DNA from: Chryseobacterium sp. MYb264
GTDB lineage: Bacteria; Bacteroidota; Bacteroidia; Flavobacteriales; Weeksellaceae
Direction: 5' to 3'
Assembly (NCBI RefSeq): GCF_035974275.1
Contig: NZ_CP142422.1
Location: 1,922,001-1,986,000 of the forward strand
DNA: 64,000 nucleotides
Part shown: piece after piece, positions 1-19,812 of the stretch
Layout of the letters: every line of letters begins with the position of its first letter
How positions within the stretch are numbered: position 1 is the stretch's first letter
The notes under the pieces: model-generated
Told to the model about the DNA's origin: nothing
The model's input: the letters and a program-made list of their open reading frames with translations, nothing else
The model's database searches: none
Position numbers and translations under genes: made by a program

Positions 1-180
1 TTTGCGACTTTGCGATAAACCAACAAAAAAAAATTCGTGCATTCGGGGCAAAAAGACACTCCACAATTTTATCTTTGATAAAATCCTTGCGACTTAAAAA
101 CATAAAGTATTAAAATAATCTTTGGGACTTTGCGATAAACCAACAAAAAAAATTCGTGCATTCGGGGCTACAAAAACAAA
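1..180. repeat. Tandem intergenic repeat, about 120-bp unit
   Basis: A block containing GACTTTGCGATAAACCAAC followed by an A-run and TTCGTGCATTCGGGGC occurs at 4-50 and again at 124-170. Between the copies lies ATTTTATCTTTGATAAAAT followed by CCTTGCGACTT. The same words, in reverse complement, form two longer units at about 20352-20690, so this is a dispersed repeat family. It sits just 3' of the helicase-nuclease gene. No reading frame is apparent. The element may continue beyond the window's left edge. Confidence 0.8.
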
Positions 181-3100
181 TCAGTTAGAAACCACTTCGT
201 ACATCAGATGTTCATTTTTAGCATATCCGTCCAGATCATTGTCTTTGTAGTAGATTCCTGCCTTTCCGGAAAATACACTCCTGTTCAGCAGTTTGATCTT
301 AGCCAGCAGTTTTCTCATTTGCTGATCCCTGTTTACCGGATTTTGAAATACTAACATATATTTATTGAATGAATACTCTATCATAAACCTGGTTATCTGT
401 TCAGCCAAAGAAGCTATTGCTTTGCTATCAAGTCCTGAAAGCACATAAGAACAGTTGAAAACAACTACTGAAGGAGAAGAAAAACGGTTTTCAAGACGCT
501 TTTTATTGATCTGGCTAAAATCTTTAACAAAATCAAAAGTATCATGCAGCCTGAAACATTCGGAGCGGGAGAATGTCATTGCCTTTTCCAGCATCGCAGT
601 TGAAGAATCCACACCAATGTAATGAATACTATCCTGAACCTCATCTTTAAAAAGTGTACTAAAGGCGAGTGCAGCCGTCAATGGACCACATCCAAAATCA
701 ATAAACACAACTTTATTCCCCAATTTTTTTATTTCAGCTGAAAAATAATCAAAATGAGTCCTGAAAACGTATTGAGAAGACGCATAATGTTTCCGCATAT
801 TCCAGTAACAGTATAACTGCACTTTATCCTGCGGCGTATACTCGAGAAACAGCTGATCCAGAGAACCACCATACTTAAAATTCTGATGAACATCCAGATT
901 TAAGGTTTCGTCAAAATCAGCCAAACCATAGCAAATAATATTGTTACGCGTAAAATCTTTCCCGGCACCCAGAATTTTTTCCGGCCACTCCGTTCTTCGG
1001 TCAGCCATTATTTTATCGAGAACCAAGGCTTTAAAAGCAGAATCAAAAGAATGATCCCACTGTATTTCCACATCTTCTTCAAGAGGTTTCCCGTTGGTTG
1101 GAAGACCAAGAAGATCTTCCGCTAAAATTTCCTTCACCGGAATATCAATATATCCCTCTTTTGATTTACAATATTCTATTAAACGCAGATAAATAATATT
1201 AGCAGAGAGAATACTGTCATTCCCAATCAGGATCAATTGCTCTTTAGATCGCGTTAAGGCCACATTCAGCTTTCGGTCGACATCTCCTTCATCGTTTAAA
1301 CTTACCATTCCATTAAGCTGGAAAGGATTATTAATTGAAAAAGAATAAATAATAATATCCCGCTGGCTTCCCTGAAAACGTTCAACAGAATCTACCGTGA
1401 TCTCTTCATAGCCCGGAATCTCTGCCTCTTCCAATTTTTGTTTGATAATCGCAATCTGATTACGGAAAGGCGCAATAATCCCCAATGACTCTTTAGGGCT
1501 GAACACCTTCTGATTTGACTGATACAAAGCCTGAACCTCTTTTACGATCTTCACAACGAGGTCAGCTTCATATTCATTAAATTTAGCATAAAGATCATCC
1601 GACTGTTTATTATTAAAGAATATCAGTCTTTTATTCGCGAGTAGATTTCTCAGCGAAGCGCCTGAATTTTCAGTAAAATTCATGGTGTTTACCTGACGGA
1701 AAAGTGCGTTTTTAACATTTGGATCAAGATTCGGTGTGTGATACGCTTCCACCAGCTTCCCCCCGTAAAAGGCAAAATTGGGAAATAAAGCAATCTCCTG
1801 ATGCATCCTTCCCTGATAGGATAAAGAATCAATCGCATGCAGAAGCTTGTGATTCTCACAAAACCTGAATAAACGTTCGAACAAAGAATTCTTACGGTTC
1901 TGCAACCCCATATTTTCAAGATCAGAATCATTCGTCAGAGAACGGTCTGAGTTCTGGAGTGAAATGGCTGGAAGCTGTTTATGATCGCCGATTAAAATAA
2001 ACTTGGGAACTTTAGAAAGTGTACCAATGATTTGGGGCTCCAAGATCTGGGAAGCTTCATCTACAATAATATAATCAAAATCCTTTATTTTAAAGATCTG
2101 ATCTCGTGAACTGATCGAAGCCACCGTGGAAATGTAAATCATATTTTCGGCGAGCAGCTTTTCAATTTCAAGGCGGGATAATCTCTTTCCATCTGATTTT
2201 AGCTTCTCTTCCCGGCGATTAATTACCTCTGACAACAGATTTTTATGATGTTCCGGTGAGGAAGAAAGTCTTGATCCGAAACGGATGAAATTGATACGCT
2301 CCGGGCTTCCTGCAGCCGCATTCACAGCTTCACAAAGCTCATCCACTGCACGGTTGGTATAAGCCAGTACCAGCACATTTTTTTCTGTCTCCATCAATTC
2401 TTTCACCAGATTTTTGATGACGATAGACGTTTTACCCGTTCCCGGCGGGCCATTCAGCAGGAAATAATGGTCTGCCGACAGAGCTTTGTTGATCACACGC
2501 TCCTGCTCGAAAGAAATACCTTTATTTTTATAGCCATAATCCCTTGACGCCGCGGGAAACTTCTGCAATAAAAGTAAATCGGCAAATATTTTTTTAGCGT
2601 TTAAAAATTCATACAGATTTTTATACATGGAATTGAAAGAAGATTCCATAAAATCTCTTTCAACAGCCCATTTCCCTTCTTCCCCGAAGGATTCAAAATA
2701 GCTTTTATTCCTCTGTCGGTATCGAAAATAGACAGTGACATATTCTTTAGTGATCGACTGAATAGTACATTTAAACAACCGGTTTTTAGAGACAATATCG
2801 GTTTCCTTATTTCTCGGATACAAAACACAGATATCGCCTGTACGGAAATTAGCGTGTTTATTACCTGGATTCGTTCTTTTAAACCTGATGATCTGCTCCT
2901 CCTCATCAATTTTATTTTCCTCAATGGTCAGGTCATAAAGAATTTCAAACTTCTTATCTTTTTCCTCAAAACTATTGAGCCAAAGGCCTGCAAGTCCGTT
3001 ATTACTGTTTTCTTTTTCCCTTTCGTTACTTCCCACTTTACTCAGATAGTGCTCATACGCCACATAATTAACAAACGACCTGAAATATTTCTGAGCCAAT

Positions 3101-4623
3101 GCCGAAGACTGCAAGTATGGATTTAAAAAAGCATGAATCTGAGGCTCTATCCTGATTCTGAAATTTTTATGAATTTCCTTATTAATGATATTCACAGGAT
3201 TTACCATGCTGAGAATCTGACCTGTTTTTTCCAGATTATCTTCTGCCAGCAAATGTTCCAGAATAATGATCCTGTTGCGAACCTCAAGAATCTGCTGAAA
3301 ACCTCTTTCATAAGGTGCCTGACCACGAAGGTTCCCCTGATCCGCTTTTGAATAAAGAATATATCCCTGAAGGAAATTATTCAGCTTGCTAATATCAATA
3401 TTTTCAGCCTGAGAAATTAAAAGATAATATAAAAAGAGCTGGGACTGATGGTTATTTTTAATGCTTTTGCCATCATCCGGAAAAACAGTTCCTCCCGATT
3501 TCAGTTCAATGATCTTAGAAATGGCTTCCGTTTTATTTCTTCGGTCCAATATATCCAATCGCCCCTGAATACCATATTTCTCGGAGATAAAAGAGGGTTC
3601 GAGAGAGGCATTTTCAATATCAATGTTCAACTCAGGAAAATCATTGTGAATGACTTGTTTTATTGTATTGAAATGTCTCTGACAATCCTGCTGAAACAGC
3701 GTAAAATCAGAAGCTGAGGCAATATCTTCACAGGTGGTATATTCAAATGGATTCGACTTAAAATGCTTGATAAATGTTGTTTTAAAACTCACATTTTCTT
3801 CAGCACCGGAAAAAAGTTCATCCACAACGAGATTGGCAAAATTTCCCAAAAGGATGTGTTTTGAATTAGCAACCTTTTCAAATTTAGACTTTAAATACAG
3901 TAATTCTGAATGACCATAATCCTGCAGACATTCTGAAATGGCAGAAACATCCACCAGATAATCAGGCTCGAGAATGAGGTATTTAGGATGAAATATTTGG
4001 TCAGCATCAATCATAATATTCAGCAGATACAATGTTGCACCCACCCAGAAATTCGCTACGGAGGCAAATTCATCATTAAAGCCCAAAGCATTGATCTGAA
4101 CAACAATCAGTTGATCTTCCGGAATTTTCATATCCAGAGCGATGCTGTTTTGATCAAGTTGGCAAATCAAAATATTTTCCTTTATTTCAACAACAGAAAC
4201 ACGGGCTTCAGGAAACAGCAGCTCAGAGGGTGAACGGTAAGTTTCGGCAGGCCTCTCCGCTTCAAGCAGGTCAGCAGGTACCGCAATTCCATATGTATCT
4301 TGTAAAAATTTTGCAAACACCGCCACGTGATACCGATACGTTTCTTCCGATGGAATGATCTGGTGATGCAGCAACTGATTGGCGGCTGTTCTTAAACCAT
4401 GAATATTTCTAGAAGTCTTAAATCCGGTACAGATGTATGATAAACGTGAAAATAAATCGGCAAAATTGATCGTTTCATGACTTGTCAAATCCTTAGACAC
4501 CTTTTCCAAAAGCTGCCTAAGCAATGGATATTTTGTTTTTACGCTAAGGCTGGAATCGGTATGAATAGAAATCAACTCATCCAAATAATCTAATGCTGCA
4601 ATTTTCTCTGACACGGCTGACAA
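181..4623 (-). CDS. Dna2-like nuclease / SF1 helicase / methyltransferase-like fusion protein
   Basis: The product has 1480 residues and no signal peptide, so it should be cytoplasmic. Residues 1-340 match nothing I recognise. At 350-400 there is a PD-(D/E)XK nuclease core of Dna2/RecB type: GRLD (G354, R355, D357), ELK (E373, K375) and a downstream Q393/Q395 with tyrosines. An SF1B (Upf1/Dna2-like) helicase follows: GPPGTGKT at 725-732, VDEAS at 854-858, GDHKQLP at 879-885, QGRM at 937-940, VERFQGSQRD at 1080-1089 and NVALTRSKEQ at 1120-1129. Residues 1300-1480 look like a class I SAM methyltransferase: DFGCGPLTAA at 1309-1318 and an acidic YIGVDSS at 1335-1341. There is no NPPY-type motif. 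The start must be TTG, because an in-frame TAA lies six codons upstream and no nearby ATG exists. Nucleic-acid processing is certain in outline. Genome defence or repair is inference. Confidence 0.85.
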   Translation of the reverse strand: MSAVSEKIAALDYLDELISIHTDSSLSVKTKYPLLRQLLEKVSKDLTSHETINFADLFSRLSYICTGFKTSRNIHGLRTAANQLLHHQIIPSEETYRYHVAVFAKFLQDTYGIAVPADLLEAERPAETYRSPSELLFPEARVSVVEIKENILICQLDQNSIALDMKIPEDQLIVVQINALGFNDEFASVANFWVGATLYLLNIMIDADQIFHPKYLILEPDYLVDVSAISECLQDYGHSELLYLKSKFEKVANSKHILLGNFANLVVDELFSGAEENVSFKTTFIKHFKSNPFEYTTCEDIASASDFTLFQQDCQRHFNTIKQVIHNDFPELNIDIENASLEPSFISEKYGIQGRLDILDRRNKTEAISKIIELKSGGTVFPDDGKSIKNNHQSQLFLYYLLISQAENIDISKLNNFLQGYILYSKADQGNLRGQAPYERGFQQILEVRNRIIILEHLLAEDNLEKTGQILSMVNPVNIINKEIHKNFRIRIEPQIHAFLNPYLQSSALAQKYFRSFVNYVAYEHYLSKVGSNEREKENSNNGLAGLWLNSFEEKDKKFEILYDLTIEENKIDEEEQIIRFKRTNPGNKHANFRTGDICVLYPRNKETDIVSKNRLFKCTIQSITKEYVTVYFRYRQRNKSYFESFGEEGKWAVERDFMESSFNSMYKNLYEFLNAKKIFADLLLLQKFPAASRDYGYKNKGISFEQERVINKALSADHYFLLNGPPGTGKTSIVIKNLVKELMETEKNVLVLAYTNRAVDELCEAVNAAAGSPERINFIRFGSRLSSSPEHHKNLLSEVINRREEKLKSDGKRLSRLEIEKLLAENMIYISTVASISSRDQIFKIKDFDYIIVDEASQILEPQIIGTLSKVPKFILIGDHKQLPAISLQNSDRSLTNDSDLENMGLQNRKNSLFERLFRFCENHKLLHAIDSLSYQGRMHQEIALFPNFAFYGGKLVEAYHTPNLDPNVKNALFRQVNTMNFTENSGASLRNLLANKRLIFFNNKQSDDLYAKFNEYEADLVVKIVKEVQALYQSNQKVFSPKESLGIIAPFRNQIAIIKQKLEEAEIPGYEEITVDSVERFQGSQRDIIIYSFSINNPFQLNGMVSLNDEGDVDRKLNVALTRSKEQLILIGNDSILSANIIYLRLIEYCKSKEGYIDIPVKEILAEDLLGLPTNGKPLEEDVEIQWDHSFDSAFKALVLDKIMADRRTEWPEKILGAGKDFTRNNIICYGLADFDETLNLDVHQNFKYGGSLDQLFLEYTPQDKVQLYCYWNMRKHYASSQYVFRTHFDYFSAEIKKLGNKVVFIDFGCGPLTAALAFSTLFKDEVQDSIHYIGVDSSTAMLEKAMTFSRSECFRLHDTFDFVKDFSQINKKRLENRFSSPSVVVFNCSYVLSGLDSKAIASLAEQITRFMIEYSFNKYMLVFQNPVNRDQQMRKLLAKIKLLNRSVFSGKAGIYYKDNDLDGYAKNEHLMYEVVSN

Positions 4624-6467: not shown

Positions 6468-7697
6468 TTAAAATGTTTTAATTAATCTACTTATCAATTC
6501 TCTGTTGGATTTACTAACTCCAAAATCTTCTGATAAATTTGACCATTTACGAAGTGCAGAAGTTGTTTGCTGGATAACTTTCTCAATGAATTCTTTCGAG
6601 AGCTTCGCTTCGCTTCCTAATTTAGTAAGATGTTTGACGGTAATATTTCGTCCTTCTCCCATTACCATAGTGCTTTGTTCTCCACCTGGTCCAGATGAGA
6701 AAGTAAGGTCGTAAGCGGGTGATAATTTCCATTCTCCAAATTCATTCATCAGAAACGAAAAATTCTTAGCATGGTCGTCTCTATTGTGCGCCATAACATT
6801 GAAAACTGCTAATCGAAACATTTTTTCTACTTCTCGAATGTCTTTGGTTAAAACACCCGTCAATGATAATAAATCTTCATAATCAAGAGACGGAAACCTA
6901 AAATTACTATGAACGAGTCCACTCACCGTATGCATATGGAGACGCTTATTTCCTTCTCTATCAAAACGCTTTACAGCAAAATAGCCATTCCCTTTCTGTG
7001 ACGGAAACAAATGGACTTCAGGCATTTCAATTCCAGCATCTACAGCCATTAAAGCGTAAATGTATTCTATTGCGCCCGCATCTTTTCCATCTAATGAGTT
7101 TGGAAATTTCACCATCCAAGGTTCAAAATTATCGCTTAACAAATTCGCTCCGTAGGATATATTTTTTCTCTCTGCATCAACGCCGATCAATGCTTTTGGC
7201 CGTGCTCCGGCAGAGGATCCGTTCAAAGCTAAAAGTTCTGCGATCACTTCTTCTGAATCACCTCGCAAAACGTCTTCTGTTTGAGTAGCCAACACGTCCA
7301 AATCAATCATCTCATTACTACTATCTGGACTTTGATCCGGCTCATAAACCAACGCACCCATACCGTGCAATCCAACATATCCTAGACGATCTAGTGGTGA
7401 AATATCCGATGAAGAAATCCCTTCCGAGCGAAGCATACGATCAAAGAGCAATCTTCCCCAACCGTCGGGCAAACTATCATTGAAAACACCAGCCAAACCT
7501 TCGAAAGGATCTCTTGGAAGCTCTATCACGTCTCGTTGTAAAGGAAGTTTTATAGGTGAAATTTCTAAATTGCTCTGCAGAAATTCTTCATCATATTGAA
7601 AATAGATGATAAAATCACGAATTGCCAAACGTCCAACGGGTTGAATTCCAGAACCAAAATCCAATCCTACTTTTATTTCTTTGATAGCTATTTTCAT
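6468..7697 (-). CDS. hipA: HipA-family serine/threonine kinase toxin
   Basis: The 409-residue protein has the HipA layout: an N-terminal subdomain (to about 110) and a kinase-like core. The glycine-rich loop reads SSAGARPK (161-168), the lysine of MVKF is at 197, the catalytic loop is HNRDDHAKN (304-312, with D307 and N312 matching the E. coli catalytic Asp and Asn) and the metal-binding Asp is in SPAYD (D330). All key residues are present, so the kinase is probably active. Known family members phosphorylate glutamyl-tRNA synthetase or related targets and cause growth arrest; the target here is unknown. The start codon overlaps the stop of the upstream hipB-like gene by 4 bp, which implies translational coupling. 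Confidence 0.93.
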   Translation of the reverse strand: MKIAIKEIKVGLDFGSGIQPVGRLAIRDFIIYFQYDEEFLQSNLEISPIKLPLQRDVIELPRDPFEGLAGVFNDSLPDGWGRLLFDRMLRSEGISSSDISPLDRLGYVGLHGMGALVYEPDQSPDSSNEMIDLDVLATQTEDVLRGDSEEVIAELLALNGSSAGARPKALIGVDAERKNISYGANLLSDNFEPWMVKFPNSLDGKDAGAIEYIYALMAVDAGIEMPEVHLFPSQKGNGYFAVKRFDREGNKRLHMHTVSGLVHSNFRFPSLDYEDLLSLTGVLTKDIREVEKMFRLAVFNVMAHNRDDHAKNFSFLMNEFGEWKLSPAYDLTFSSGPGGEQSTMVMGEGRNITVKHLTKLGSEAKLSKEFIEKVIQQTTSALRKWSNLSEDFGVSKSNRELISRLIKTF

Positions 7698-7999
7698 CTC
7701 CTGCGTCCTCTTTTTTTAATGGGCTTTTCCTCTGATTTCAGAACATCATCGATAGATTTAAAACTCTGTTCCTTCGGTTTTAAAGCATCAACCATTTCTT
7801 CTAATCCACCAACAACTGAAAGCAATTTTAAAAATGAATCCAGGGAAATCAAGCCTTTTTGCTCAAATTTCCTCAGAGTTGGTAAAGGAACACCTGATCT
7901 TTCAGCCAGACCTTCCTGTGTTAGATTCATTTGCAATCGTCTTTCCCGGATATTATCAATCAGTTTTTTTTGAACTTTTGAAAAAGAAATAAATAACAT
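7694..7999 (-). CDS. hipB: HipB-like XRE-family antitoxin/repressor
   Basis: This 101-residue protein carries a helix-turn-helix of the XRE (Cro/CI) type at about residues 14-70, with the sequence LTQEGLAERSGVPLPTLRKF covering the recognition helix region. The C-terminus is strongly basic (KKRGRRR). It sits immediately upstream of hipA and overlaps it by 4 bp, the standard order for hipBA operons. It should bind the operon promoter and neutralise HipA. No clear TAnnTTTG element lies directly upstream. AATAATATTATT at about 8033-8044 is a candidate operator but is only simple palindromic AT sequence. Confidence 0.9.
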   Translation of the reverse strand: MLFISFSKVQKKLIDNIRERRLQMNLTQEGLAERSGVPLPTLRKFEQKGLISLDSFLKLLSVVGGLEEMVDALKPKEQSFKSIDDVLKSEEKPIKKRGRRR

Positions 8000-8701: not shown

Positions 8702-10087
8702 CTACTTTCCGATACAAAACTTAGAAAAAATATTCCCCAACACTTCATCATTAGTCACCTCACCCGAAATTTCGCCAAGATGTTCCAAAGCATTTCTAAG
8801 CTCATAAGCTAACAATTCTGTAGAAATTTGAAAAGAAATAGCCTCCTTTACTTTATTTACGGCATCCAATGATTTCCCTAATGCTTCAAAATGACGTTGA
8901 TTGGTGATCACCACATTATTTTCAGCGGACTTCAACTGCTCCACGTAAGAAGACAGTTCGTTTTTAAGATCCTGAATATTTTGGTTTTCAACAGCAGAAA
9001 TTTTAATAAAATCAAATTCATGAGCAATTTTATTTCGGAAAATATCTTCAACTTTCTCATACGCTGCAGGAGAAACTTCGTCAATTTTAGTTGCACAGAT
9101 AATTAACTTTAGATCATCTCGCAACAAAGATTGGATCATCTCAATATCTTCAGAAAAATCTGCCGTGGCAGCATCCGCCAAATACACAAGGATATTAGCG
9201 TTTTCTACTTTCTCTTTGGCTTTTTTCACGCCGATGGCCTCAATTTCGTCCACTGTTTCACGCAAGCCAGCCGTGTCGATCAAACGGAAAGCATGACCTT
9301 TAATATGAAGCACCTCTTCAATAGTATCTCTCGTGGTTCCGGCAATATTACTCACAATGGCTCTTTCTTCTTTTAATAAAGCATTCAGCAAAGTCGATTT
9401 TCCGGCATTCGGCTTTCCGATAATGGCCACCGCAGTTCCGTTTTTAATCGCATTTCCATATTGGAAACTCTCAATTAAAGAATTAAGTTTAAGCTCTATT
9501 TTATTAAGAAGCTGTACCAATGCAGAGCGGTCCGCAAACTCCACATCTTCCTCCGCAAAATCAAGTTCAAGCTCGATTAACGAAACAAAATTCAGTAAAT
9601 CTGTTCTCAAAAAAGAAATTTCATTGGTAATTCCTCCTTTTAGCTGATTGATAGCTACTTTCCTCGAAGCTTCATTTTCAGAAGCAATCACATCAGCAAT
9701 CGCTTCCGCCTGAGAAAGGTCAATTCTTCCGTTGATGAAGGCACGAAGGGTAAACTCTCCTGCCTTTGCCATTCTTGCTCCGTTTTTAATTAAAGTTTCA
9801 AGAATACGTTTTCCAATATGTGGCGAACCGTGAAAAGCAATTTCCACAGAGTTTTCAGTTGTAAAACTTTTCGGAGCCAGGAAAATAGAAAGCATCACCT
9901 CATCAATCGCCTCTTCGCCATCCACAAAATAACCGTAATGAATGGTATGAGATTTCTGCTTTGCAAGATTTTTTGCCGGAAAAGATTTCTGAACCACGCC
10001 TAAAGCATCGTCCCCCGAAACTCTGATAATGCCTAAAGCACCTACTCCATTGGCCGTAGCCAGCGCACAAATGGTATCGTTATTCAT
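8702..10087 (-). CDS. mnmE: tRNA uridine-5-carboxymethylaminomethyl modification GTPase MnmE
   Basis: MnmE, with MnmG, installs the 5-carboxymethylaminomethyl group on U34 of certain tRNAs in the cytoplasm. The 461-residue protein is of normal family length. It has the N-terminal folate-binding TrmE domain (1-115), a helical domain, and an inserted G domain with G1 GKPNAGKS (224-231), G2 TTRDT and G3 DTAG. G4 reads TKID in place of NKxD, a conservative change seen in some members. The C-terminus is CIGK, the invariant CxGK motif. A TAAATTTG promoter element lies 5 nt upstream of the ATG, so the mRNA is likely almost leaderless. Confidence 0.97.
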   Translation of the reverse strand: MNNDTICALATANGVGALGIIRVSGDDALGVVQKSFPAKNLAKQKSHTIHYGYFVDGEEAIDEVMLSIFLAPKSFTTENSVEIAFHGSPHIGKRILETLIKNGARMAKAGEFTLRAFINGRIDLSQAEAIADVIASENEASRKVAINQLKGGITNEISFLRTDLLNFVSLIELELDFAEEDVEFADRSALVQLLNKIELKLNSLIESFQYGNAIKNGTAVAIIGKPNAGKSTLLNALLKEERAIVSNIAGTTRDTIEEVLHIKGHAFRLIDTAGLRETVDEIEAIGVKKAKEKVENANILVYLADAATADFSEDIEMIQSLLRDDLKLIICATKIDEVSPAAYEKVEDIFRNKIAHEFDFIKISAVENQNIQDLKNELSSYVEQLKSAENNVVITNQRHFEALGKSLDAVNKVKEAISFQISTELLAYELRNALEHLGEISGEVTNDEVLGNIFSKFCIGK

Positions 10088-17112: not shown

Positions 17113-19812
17113 TTATTTTTTAATGATCAATTTAGATGTCGCATCAAAGCCTAAGCCTTTTACTTTTACCATATACACTCCATTGTTTAATCTCTCCGTA
17201 GAAATAGCCGTTTTAGCATCCGGAGAAACTTTGTCTTCAGAAGCTACTAATTTCCCTGACATATCGTACACCTCAACATTCATCTTTCCGTTGGCTTTGC
17301 TTGGGAAATTGATGTAAAACTCGTTTTTGGCCGGGTTTGGATAAATTGAAACCGTATTTTTAACAGCGCTTACTTCGTTGGTAGCTAATGCAGCACAATC
17401 TGCAGGCAGATCGAAATTTTCTACCTGATCGTTAAGAGCAGCATTCACAGCAGCAGTGTTATTCACATTGGTCGGAGCTTTACTTCCAGCCGATGCATTG
17501 ATTCCCAATCCTCTATTGGCGAAAACATTCCATATCATACAACGGTTTTGACCTCCGGTTTTTGCCTGGTCTGCGGCTATAATTGCATCTCTACCGTTTA
17601 TGAAAGTAGGATTACATCCCTGAAGTTTTAATGCATCTACAACCAATTGTAAAACCTGAGCACTTCCACTATTTGCATTAGCGGTTACATCAGATGCATA
17701 CCCATATTTTTCAACATATTTCCAGTTTAGATCCCAAAGCATTGTTGCCCAGATAAAGCCAATAGAATGCACATCCGGAACTTGTCTATTTACCTGAGGT
17801 CTACTATCAAAAAATGCCATACCATTTGTATCTCCGTAGGTAAAATCATTGATTGCAAAATTCGGAGAGTATTTGGCGGGACGGATACCGCCACCAGTAA
17901 TAGGCTGATTAGCCGCATAGGTACCAGTACCCCTTGCAACAGAAGCGTTATCTCCTGGTTTATTCGTTAACATCAAAGCAAAGAAATCAGACCAACCTTC
18001 TCCCATCTGCTCGTTAGAAACGTTATAATTTAAACAGTTATATCCTGTACCCGTCATTCTGTTAGAAATACCATGCCCATATTCGTGCGTTACGATTCCG
18101 TTATCAAAACTTCCGTCTGGTGTAACACTTGTTGCCGGATCATTCTTCAGCGTAACATTTACGGTAGTGTTTGCTGTTAATTGACTTTTTATATATTCAC
18201 CCTCTGAATTACCAATTAAAACAGCAGGAATAGTAACTGTTGAATCTGTTCCTGACATATTAATTACTGTATCCCCATTTACACTATTATTGTAAATGAT
18301 AGTAGCAACAGCACCAGCATCCTGTAAGTTTTTAGTTTTAATTACAAAATCACAAGAACCTCTCTCTACTAAACCAATTTTACCTGTAAGAGACCCTGCA
18401 GGCAATGCGGTACAACCATTTAAAACAGAAGAAAGCTGGATATCACCGGTTACACCTGTTGCGGTAAGCGCAGATCCAAACACTGCTGTCCCTGCCGACG
18501 GAGTACGTGTAGTTGCAGCAGTGGGTGCATTATAGAAAAATACTCTATTTGCCGAAGACCATAAGTACATTTGCATTTTTGGATTATAGTTATCTTCAGG
18601 AGAAGCAAAGTTGGCATTATTCGTTCCGCCACCATCCTGAGCTTCAGCCAATACATAATCATCATCTAATCCACCTTTTCCAAAATTATTCTGTTGGAAG
18701 TTCTTTGCGGATTCTGTAAATCCGAATTGGTAGAATACATCATGAACTTTATTATTAAGGTAAAATAAATTCGTGATAGAAGCATTTAAGTTAGCTGCCG
18801 GACTACCCGTTATGGAAAATGGGAAATCAAAATTTCGTGAAGCACCACCATCAGCCGGAGTTCCCGCTATATAATCAGGATACGTCATAGAGATACCTGA
18901 TAAATCTTCATAAGCAAAAACATTATTACCTCTGGTTATGGTATAATGTGTAGTTCCGTCAGAATGCCACCCTTCCGGTGACGCGGTTAGGTCCCAAGGA
19001 TTTGAAATTATAGACCTTGAACCAAATGTAGCAGCTTCTAGCGGAAGTGGAAAAACATTATATGAAGCATTATCTGGTAATAATAAAGCCACATTCTGAT
19101 TAGTAGATTGATTTACATTATTTTCTACACTAGCAAATTTATGTTCAGTTCCATCTGCATGAATATGAGATTGTGAATAATCGTGTGAATATACACCTCC
19201 TTGTTCAAACTCACAAAAAGTCGTTAGATTAGCTTTACTTATAATATCACCAGTATTGGCATCAACTACAATATTCCAATAGTTGGCAGATTTTGGCTCA
19301 CTAAAAGAATATTCATAAGCTAATCTTAAATCACCATTTCCATTGTTTGCATATACAAGTCTTTGTTTTGCAGCATGGTTCTTATTTGCCGATTTTTCTA
19401 AAAACTTAATGATCGGTAAACTGGAAATTTCAGACTTTCCTAAATCCTCTGCAATCTTATCTAACGCAGAATTTTTAGAAATCGTAACATGGGTTGATGT
19501 AGCCTCATGATAATCTTTAACAAAATTATCCGTAAAATACACCACCTTATTGTCTTTAATAAGCGCTGTTGCTACAGAATTATAAACAGGGAGTCCATTA
19601 TAAGTCTGCTGAATTTTTACCACATTACCATTTAATGATTTTGAAGGATCCACATTATCAACAATAAAATTATTGAGATCTGATCTCTTATATTCTCTTA
19701 TTTTATTTTGAGAAATATAATCTTTTATTAATCTTTCATTATCTTGTCCAAAAAGAACAGTGGGAAACACTGCGAAAGCAGCAAAAAGAAGGGGTAGAGT
19801 TATCTTTTTCAT
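17113..19812 (-). CDS. Secreted M36 (fungalysin) metalloprotease with PA domain and T9SS sorting tail
   Basis: I place the start at the ATG at 19810-19812 (899 residues) instead of 13 codons upstream, because it gives a clean signal peptide, MKKITLPLLFAAFAVFPTV, and lies after a -7 element. An FTP propeptide-like domain follows (about 30-200). The M36 catalytic domain carries HEYGH with H576, E577 and H580 and a downstream EGWSDFF glutamate. A protease-associated (PA) insert lies before the catalytic helix. The last 80 residues (IYPNPAKNEFYINF onward, ending KLIIKK) are a type A T9SS sorting domain. It should be an extracellular zinc endopeptidase passed through the outer membrane by T9SS. 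Confidence 0.95.
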   Translation of the reverse strand: MKKITLPLLFAAFAVFPTVLFGQDNERLIKDYISQNKIREYKRSDLNNFIVDNVDPSKSLNGNVVKIQQTYNGLPVYNSVATALIKDNKVVYFTDNFVKDYHEATSTHVTISKNSALDKIAEDLGKSEISSLPIIKFLEKSANKNHAAKQRLVYANNGNGDLRLAYEYSFSEPKSANYWNIVVDANTGDIISKANLTTFCEFEQGGVYSHDYSQSHIHADGTEHKFASVENNVNQSTNQNVALLLPDNASYNVFPLPLEAATFGSRSIISNPWDLTASPEGWHSDGTTHYTITRGNNVFAYEDLSGISMTYPDYIAGTPADGGASRNFDFPFSITGSPAANLNASITNLFYLNNKVHDVFYQFGFTESAKNFQQNNFGKGGLDDDYVLAEAQDGGGTNNANFASPEDNYNPKMQMYLWSSANRVFFYNAPTAATTRTPSAGTAVFGSALTATGVTGDIQLSSVLNGCTALPAGSLTGKIGLVERGSCDFVIKTKNLQDAGAVATIIYNNSVNGDTVINMSGTDSTVTIPAVLIGNSEGEYIKSQLTANTTVNVTLKNDPATSVTPDGSFDNGIVTHEYGHGISNRMTGTGYNCLNYNVSNEQMGEGWSDFFALMLTNKPGDNASVARGTGTYAANQPITGGGIRPAKYSPNFAINDFTYGDTNGMAFFDSRPQVNRQVPDVHSIGFIWATMLWDLNWKYVEKYGYASDVTANANSGSAQVLQLVVDALKLQGCNPTFINGRDAIIAADQAKTGGQNRCMIWNVFANRGLGINASAGSKAPTNVNNTAAVNAALNDQVENFDLPADCAALATNEVSAVKNTVSIYPNPAKNEFYINFPSKANGKMNVEVYDMSGKLVASEDKVSPDAKTAISTERLNNGVYMVKVKGLGFDATSKLIIKK

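Follow-up and report, generated by a model that had tools for sequence, protein, structure and literature searches.

A Dna2-like nuclease-helicase with a fused class I methyltransferase at a variable site in Chryseobacterium sp. MYb264

Introduction

Dna2 is known mainly as a eukaryotic replication and repair enzyme, in which four cysteines around the nuclease hold an iron-sulfur cluster, and to our knowledge no Dna2 carries a chemistry that couples strand cutting to the marking of bases. Here we describe a computational analysis of a gene (181..4623, minus strand) in a window of 64,000 nucleotides from Chryseobacterium sp. MYb264 (NZ_CP142422.1, positions 1,922,001 to 1,986,000). Its product joins an OB-like barrel, a PD-(D/E)XK nuclease, a beta-barrel, and an SF1B helicase motor in the same order as Dna2 (Pfam PF08696; PDB 5eaw) and, unlike Dna2, continues into a C-terminal class I methyltransferase (MT).

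Other described systems share single parts with this protein. Eukaryotic ALKBH8 combines an AlkB domain with an MT, and in the Mokosh system a partner kinase gene adjoins the helicase. The closest model for the MT is PADLOC C3a159, a name that suggests a type III CRISPR accessory. Fusions of a Cas4-like nuclease with a UvrD helicase are discussed in an excerpt of PMC5704561, and the excerpts of PMC9503650, PMC5704561, and PMC7641849 at hand contain no Dna2-MT fusion. Neither the fusion nor an MT-AlkB cassette is described in the titles and abstract openings listed from searches of the open-licence literature, which is weak evidence of novelty. What is already known includes the PADLOC MT model and at least 79 database clusters of the long form, some of them named "DNA replication ATP-dependent helicase Dna2." We give about an even chance to the reading that the gene encodes an accessory, mobile, and probably defense-linked Dna2-type enzyme that has captured the MT of an MT-AlkB nucleic acid modification cassette.

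Domain Architecture of the Fusion Protein

The open reading frame (ORF) is intact and encodes 1480 residues when counted from a TTG codon on the minus strand. The database entry begins three codons later, at a GTG (4612-4614), to give 1477 residues; homologue P0002 begins likewise, and GTG is the likelier start. The gene is uninterrupted and present once in the 5.23-Mb single-contig genome. Its parts are as follows.

181..4623, minus strand: complete gene for the Dna2-like nuclease-helicase with its class I MT
4264..4623, minus strand: N-terminal helical region, residues 1-120 (AlphaFold2 model)
3967..4233, minus strand: OB-like barrel, residues 131-219
3106..3966, minus strand: PD-(D/E)XK nuclease of RecB/Cas4 type, residues 220-506
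3553..3555, minus strand: putative catalytic Asp-357 in the GRLD motif
3499..3507, minus strand: ELK, residues 373-375
2644..2997, minus strand: beta-barrel before the motor, residues 543-660, as in Dna2 and IGHMBP2
1144..2526, minus strand: SF1B helicase motor, residues 700-1160 (Pfam AAA_11 and AAA_12)
184..1074, minus strand: class I S-adenosylmethionine (SAM) MT, residues 1184-1480, of a family elsewhere paired with AlkB
682..699, minus strand: SAM-binding motif I, DFGCGP, residues 1309-1314 (from sequence)

An initial annotation of this DNA had proposed one chain of a nuclease, a superfamily 1 (SF1) helicase, and an MT-like domain, and Pfam, PADLOC, and AlphaFold2 agree with this, as do the intact frame and the conserved motifs. 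The Dna2 order that it had recognized is borne out by a fold match to Dna2 over residues 53-687 and a colinear profile match. The helicase matches Pfam AAA_11 (E 5e-31) and AAA_12 (E 2e-33), with the motor extending to about residue 1136, and PADLOC places a Cas4-like nuclease at residues 342-429 (E 7e-6). The nuclease core had been identified correctly by its GRLD, ELK, and Q motifs; the layout needed correction in that a helical part and the OB-like barrel precede it. Folds were modeled for all parts except the helicase motor, which was assigned from sequence. Among the cysteines of residues 1-700 only Cys-232 is near-invariant, so the iron-sulfur cysteines of Dna2 are not conserved and we call the protein Dna2-like rather than Dna2 proper.

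For the MT, Pfam yields only sub-threshold matches (Methyltransf_31 at E 0.007, under the cut-off), whereas PADLOC C3a159, described as "methyl transferase," matches residues 1260-1465 (E 6e-17), which makes the domain a member of that family by sequence, without its usual AlkB partner. C3a159, with a model length of about 265 residues, presumably exists as a protein of its own, as near a RAMP CRISPR gene on plasmid pAQ6, in contrast to the fused MT of the window. In the AlphaFold2 model of the region, strands and helices alternate as in a Rossmann methyltransferase (pLDDT 88, pTM 0.88). A C-terminal MT had thus been rightly annotated, with the difference that the fold begins near residue 1184 and not at 1300. 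The absence of an NPPY-type motif also stands: the region reads NCSY, with a family consensus of NFSY. A chance Rossmann match was considered and rejected on the strength of the model together with motif I, which is intact in 76 of 79 long homologues. Assignment to Rsm22/METTL17 was likewise rejected, the fold being close and the sequence not. Pfam Rsm22 is absent from the families matched by 41 MT members at E 0.01, and in a profile comparison (hhalign) with the bacterial Rsm22 type only motif I aligned, at 35% probability, against 97% for a generic methyltransferase of the same genome used as control. METTL17 or Rsm22 is seen in the intermediates of entries 8CSP-8CSU and 8D8J-8D8L, and 6SGB contains T. 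brucei Rsm22, according to an excerpt of PMC9892005.

Two further models overlap the Dna2-like part. PADLOC MkoA, from Mokosh, has the helicase in common (residues 643-1141, E 3e-65), and NCBIfam PLuB_AAA (NF040671) has most of the Dna2-like part (residues 184-1153, E 1.5e-70), with a score of 237.9 bits, far under the curated cut-off of 999. The meaning of PLuB was not found in the open-licence literature. Read by Pfam, the neighbors at this locus comprise mnmE, a hipBA-like pair, and a DUF1826 gene, and in this reading no partner genes of PLuB_AAA or MkoA were recognized; HipA itself has a kinase fold.

Conservation of the Nuclease and Probable Repeated Loss of the Methyltransferase

A homologue search scored 7997 candidates, of which 7873 passed, and the best 120 were analyzed. 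Seventy-nine of these exceed 1350 residues; the other 41 are shorter, and most of these have about 1150 residues and end after the motor. The nuclease is retained regardless: GR[LM]D, ELK, and the Gln and Tyr positions are each found in 120 of the 120, MT-less proteins included, and Walker A (GPPGTGKT) in 119. In an alignment of 42 rows that includes distant relatives, Glu-342, Asp-357, Glu-373, Lys-375, Gln-395, and Tyr-399 are invariant. Of the 79 homologues longer than 1350 residues, 76 keep motif I (D-x-G-C-G-P) intact, and P0049 has a gap at this point; because the motif is kept so widely, the MT is probably used. Two full-length proteins, P0101 and P0102, carry a degenerate MT (about residues 1300-1475) that lacks the glycine loop beside intact nuclease motifs; here the domain is perhaps a structural leftover.

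A tree was built with FastTree from the core of 105 proteins, 50 of which carry the MT; they comprise 82 of the best 120 matches (every second long match and all short ones, some of which may be truncated) and 23 proteins from the fetched loci. The MT-bearing proteins share a common ancestor with a support of 0.997. Within their clade lie eight MT-less subtrees, including the protein of locus L124 and a subtree holding the degenerate P0101 (Fitch parsimony, eight changes), with local supports of 0.32-1.0 for the MT-less clades in this one tree and parsimony count. If the domain was gained once, the tree suggests about seven to eight losses, although L124 could be ancestral.

These losses bear on the restriction-modification logic that had been suggested for the protein, in which the MT would shield host DNA and the nuclease-helicase destroy unmodified DNA. 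The presence of nuclease, motor, and MT in one chain and the variable site occupied by the gene speak for such a system. An obligatory antidote, however, should not be dispensable, and since 41 of the best 120 matches are shorter with nuclease motifs intact, the MT is not one. The repeated loss beside intact nuclease residues makes a restriction-modification pair unlikely, although a modification gene may lie elsewhere in those genomes, and the degenerate MT of P0101 and P0102 and the pairing of the MT family with AlkB point the same way. We reject restriction-modification in its classical form on account of the losses, and we regard a single-chain version as very improbable.

The Methyltransferase Family and Its AlkB Partner

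Searching with the MT domain alone returned 35 proteins. Among these are proteins of 473-509 residues (where named, from Bacteroidia and Chitinophagales) and of about 300 residues (where named, from Planctomycetaceae and Poribacteria). A scan of species genomes gave 69 MT loci; for the AlkB count three MT matches below 100 bits were dropped, which removes locus L118. An AlkB-type gene lies within 1.5 kb 3' of the unfused MT on the same strand in 41 of 58 loci, at a spacing of -40 to +35 bases in 33 of the 41. Of the 17 loci without AlkB, 7 break off less than 700 bases past the MT, and 10 are genuine misses. By record titles, the positive loci belong to Bacteroidota, Cyanobacteria, Poribacteria, Latescibacterota, Planctomycetes, Chloroflexi, and Gammaproteobacteria, and because many are Poribacteria they are not independent. 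The closest PDB match of the partner is ALKBH8 (E 1.5e-27), and the HxD...H motif and C-terminal Arg pair of AlkB are kept in 52 of 53 sequences. A poribacterial ORF of 633 residues (L099:9701-11602) carries the MT and an ALKBH8-like AlkB in one chain. The pairing across several phyla points to nucleic acid modification chemistry.

The pair occurs in larger operons. In Bacteroidota, genes for an SF1 helicase and a 2CompART-2CompARG protein stand ahead of it at 12 loci, as judged by protein family, two of which (L080 and L121) coincide; the Pfam domains were read on L121. This four-gene operon (SF1 helicase, 2CompART-2CompARG, MT, AlkB) lies at L121:5418-10872 and also at L058, L060, L069, L075, L081, L088, L106, L117, L122, and L123; at L117 a reverse transcriptase gene comes before it and a DUF1848 gene after it. 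On plasmids pAQ6 (L194:3717-7405) and pAQ5 (L195:3731-7405) of Picosynechococcus PCC 7002 a kinase-led protein is followed by the MT and then AlkB. This protein has an AAA_33 kinase and a weak C-terminal WCX match, and the kinase domain of pAQ5 resembles KTI12, PSTK, and bacterial Pnkp. Nearby genes include the RAMP CRISPR-associated gene on pAQ6 and a reverse transcriptase gene on pAQ5. Scanning viral contigs for MT relatives gave 67 stretches that fit the pattern, none of which was confirmed.

On the nature of the target the comparisons lean in two directions, the ALKBH8-, PSTK/KTI12-, and Rsm22-like resemblances toward RNA and the Dna2 part toward DNA. The former underlie an alternative in which MT and AlkB are a split prokaryotic counterpart of ALKBH8 that would modify or repair tRNA (or rRNA) attacked in phage-host conflict, and the Dna2-like part would serve the same pathway with RNA or RNA-DNA hybrids as its substrate. 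We hold this to be somewhat unlikely: the nuclease-helicase resembles a DNA enzyme, some of its MT-less kin lie beside recJ and ruvC, and the MT profile meets the Rsm22 type at motif I only. Moreover, P-loop kinases, AlkB, and methyltransferases also act in DNA base modification.

Genomic Context of the Fusion Gene

Twelve fusion loci were examined (the window, L021, L050-L057, L059, and L061). AlkB lies directly downstream of the fusion in four of them (L021, L053, L054, and L055), and AlkB of the same type (at least 49% identity) is encoded elsewhere in the genomes of L051 (G900) and L057 (G906), not directly downstream. The initial statement that the gene stands alone therefore applies to its own locus and not in general. 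At L050 the fusion has neighbors of CBASS type, a DncV-like nucleotidyltransferase and a patatin, and L051 and L052 hold the same gene families; a tyrosine recombinase is found near the fusion at L053 and a GmrSD-type gene at L054. Leaving the window aside, defense or mobile genes are found near five of the 11 fusion loci (L050-L054), a raw count uncorrected for background. An RtcR-like sigma-54 activator (L050:14053-15507) adjoins the CBASS-type genes and the fusion gene. Downstream of the fusion there is a DUF1848 gene at L056 and an SNF2 helicase at L061, whose fused protein has weak C-terminal matches to arsenic (E 6e-4) and mercaptohistidine (E 5e-3) methyltransferase models.

In Chryseobacterium sp. 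MYb264 the gene is flanked by a DUF1826 gene (18791-19549 of locus L119) and mnmE, in an interval that contains the fusion gene, an ORF of 168 residues without a Pfam match, and a hipBA-like pair.

8702..10087, minus strand: mnmE, with the variable interval that holds the fusion gene adjoining its 3' end
6468..7999, minus strand: hipBA-like pair in the same interval
6468-7697, minus strand: HipA
7694-7999, minus strand: small helix-turn-helix-like ORF, read as HipB by eye
1..168 of the window, no strand: end of a 120-bp tandem repeat that spans L119:19703-20000 and these positions

The tandem repeat (3.9 copies of 120 bp, 95% matches) lies between the DUF1826 gene and the fusion gene, directly downstream of the latter. 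The DUF1826 gene was found in 13 genomes, 10 of which have mnmE on the same contig; in G009, G011, and G079 the two are on different contigs and uninformative. DUF1826 gene and mnmE are 7 bases apart in G008 and 65 bases in G001; in the other genomes they are separated by 7.9 kb (G002), 9.2 kb (the present genome), 13 kb (G010), 23 kb (G006 and G007), 38 kb (G005), 44 kb (G003), and 100 kb (G004). The 3' end of mnmE is the border of a variable site within the genus, and the repeats and accessory neighborhood noted at the outset are confirmed. SGI1-type islands integrate at the 3' end of mnmE (trmE). A tyrosine recombinase adjoins mnmE in G003 and lies 0.9 kb away in G007, where a 19-base near-copy of that genome's own mnmE 3' end stands at the far side of an insert. 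The copy studied here may itself be mobile. Promoter-like sites (22 against 17.2, S.D. 4.8, in shuffles) and terminator-like sites (2 against 3.7, S.D. 2.2) gave no signal.

The distant relatives without the MT show a different setting. Thirteen of their loci were fetched (L124-L136), with neighbor families named from one member each. A RecJ-family gene is directly upstream in five (L128-L131 and L134), and in two of these (L131 and L134) RuvC is directly downstream; L128 matches Pfam Dna2 (E 9e-10), and in a Bacteroides record the MT-less gene follows tatC. Such housekeeping settings point to a repair enzyme as the ancestor of the fusion, and it is possible that the MT-less genes beside RecJ and RuvC are a bacterial Dna2 in core recombination. 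Homologues consistently found in housekeeping operons had been named as a point that would remove the defense idea; what we find is recJ beside 5 of the 13 distant MT-less genes, and fused loci that do not share one housekeeping operon.

Occurrence across Genomes

The surveys of genus, family, order, and phylum scored few candidates per genome and give lower bounds. Within the genus the full-length protein is present in at least 1 of 60 genomes, the present one, and at least 22 of the 60 have any match, mostly to the helicase only; MT-region matches in G009, G010, and G043 are ORFs of 486-495 residues. Across the family at least 15 of 320 genomes have a strong match, namely this one, with the MT, and 14 of the genus g240, MT-less at 48-50% identity. 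In the order at least 6 of 395 genomes match, two with the MT (this genome and G275) and four without it at 29-33% identity. Among 296 genomes of the phylum the fused form occurs in at least two, and 31 others match at 27-37% identity from about residue 217 or earlier to about 957 or beyond, short of the MT. The fused form is rare, with a patchy distribution.

A purely housekeeping role, in which a bacterial Dna2 performs DNA end resection or flap processing and the MT is a minor, lineage-specific accessory, would account for the RecJ and RuvC neighbors, for the MT-less version in at least 14 genomes of g240, and for repeated MT loss with nuclease motifs intact. It fits poorly with the rarity and patchiness of the fused form, with its place in a variable site, and with a motif I kept in 76 of 79, and we regard it as distinctly unlikely.

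Proposed Role of the Fusion Protein

The initial annotation had offered defense or repair as possible roles, and both are upheld as candidates. In the reading that we favor, the MT of a separate, widespread MT-AlkB cassette was captured by a descendant of a Dna2-type nuclease-helicase. By analogy to Dna2, the motor and nuclease would act on DNA ends or flaps: the SF1B motor would engage invading or abnormal nucleic acid at single-stranded ends or flaps and thread the strand through the PD-(D/E)XK nuclease, which would cut it. With SAM as donor, the MT would methylate a base of whichever nucleic acid the motor holds, so as to mark or edit it; the substrates and the direction of the methyl chemistry are themselves suppositions. 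Where an AlkB partner is encoded, the methyl mark could be further oxidized or removed. On balance, the protein would most likely defend the cell from phages or mobile elements, or clear up the damage that they cause. The variable site, the defense or mobile genes near L050-L054, and the conflict-type genes that accompany the MT family argue for defense.

Several observations weigh against this reading. No mnmE-end repeat was found around the present copy of the gene. Six of the 12 fusion genomes, this one included, lack an AlkB of the partner type, with genome-wide matches of at most 32% identity or none; AlkB of the ALKBH8-like type is thus absent from both locus and genome here. The Chitinophaga loci L057, L059, and L061 are mutually syntenic with no defense gene recognized, a context that does not look mobile. 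The MT-less version occurs in at least 14 genomes of the single genus g240, and the distant kin beside recJ, ruvC, or tatC fit housekeeping DNA repair. Finally, a search of the phage collection at E 1e-30 gave no record with the fusion, and the three plasmid records matched at E 1e-50 are all MT-less.

Seen more widely, an ALKBH8-like AlkB adjoins both the fusion (4 of 12 loci) and the unfused MT (41 of 58). Unlike ALKBH8, the 1480-residue chain has no AlkB domain by Pfam, and the likeness would be one of working mode only. We propose, tentatively and with the balance of probability against it, that MT and AlkB form a portable prokaryotic cassette, a split analogue of ALKBH8 plugged into differing conflict machines, and that the window protein couples strand cutting to placing or repairing a mark on a base where the conflict takes place. 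The hosts of such a cassette, in an equally doubtful proposal, might be the ART/ARG and SF1-helicase operon, the kinase-led operons that cyanobacterial plasmids carry close to genes for type III CRISPR or a reverse transcriptase, and the Dna2-type fusion. The bacterial Dna2-like branch, with members beside recJ and ruvC and a rare MT-fused form, offers a way to ask how a repair nuclease becomes accessory, and perhaps immune.

Gene Content of the Variable Interval in Related Genomes

The interval between the DUF1826 gene and mnmE was scanned with PADLOC in six genomes, covering 75 of 86 ORFs of at least 180 residues; the 11 omitted are ORFs of L164 that look like copies of ORFs in L162-L163, and G004 (L171-L175) lay outside the scan. 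Among the 75 proteins 18 PADLOC families were matched at E ≤1e-10, nearly all by one protein each, and they include QatA, QatC, QatD, PDC-M54A, mad2, mad3, PDC-S20, PifA, LmuA, DzbA, and DzbB.

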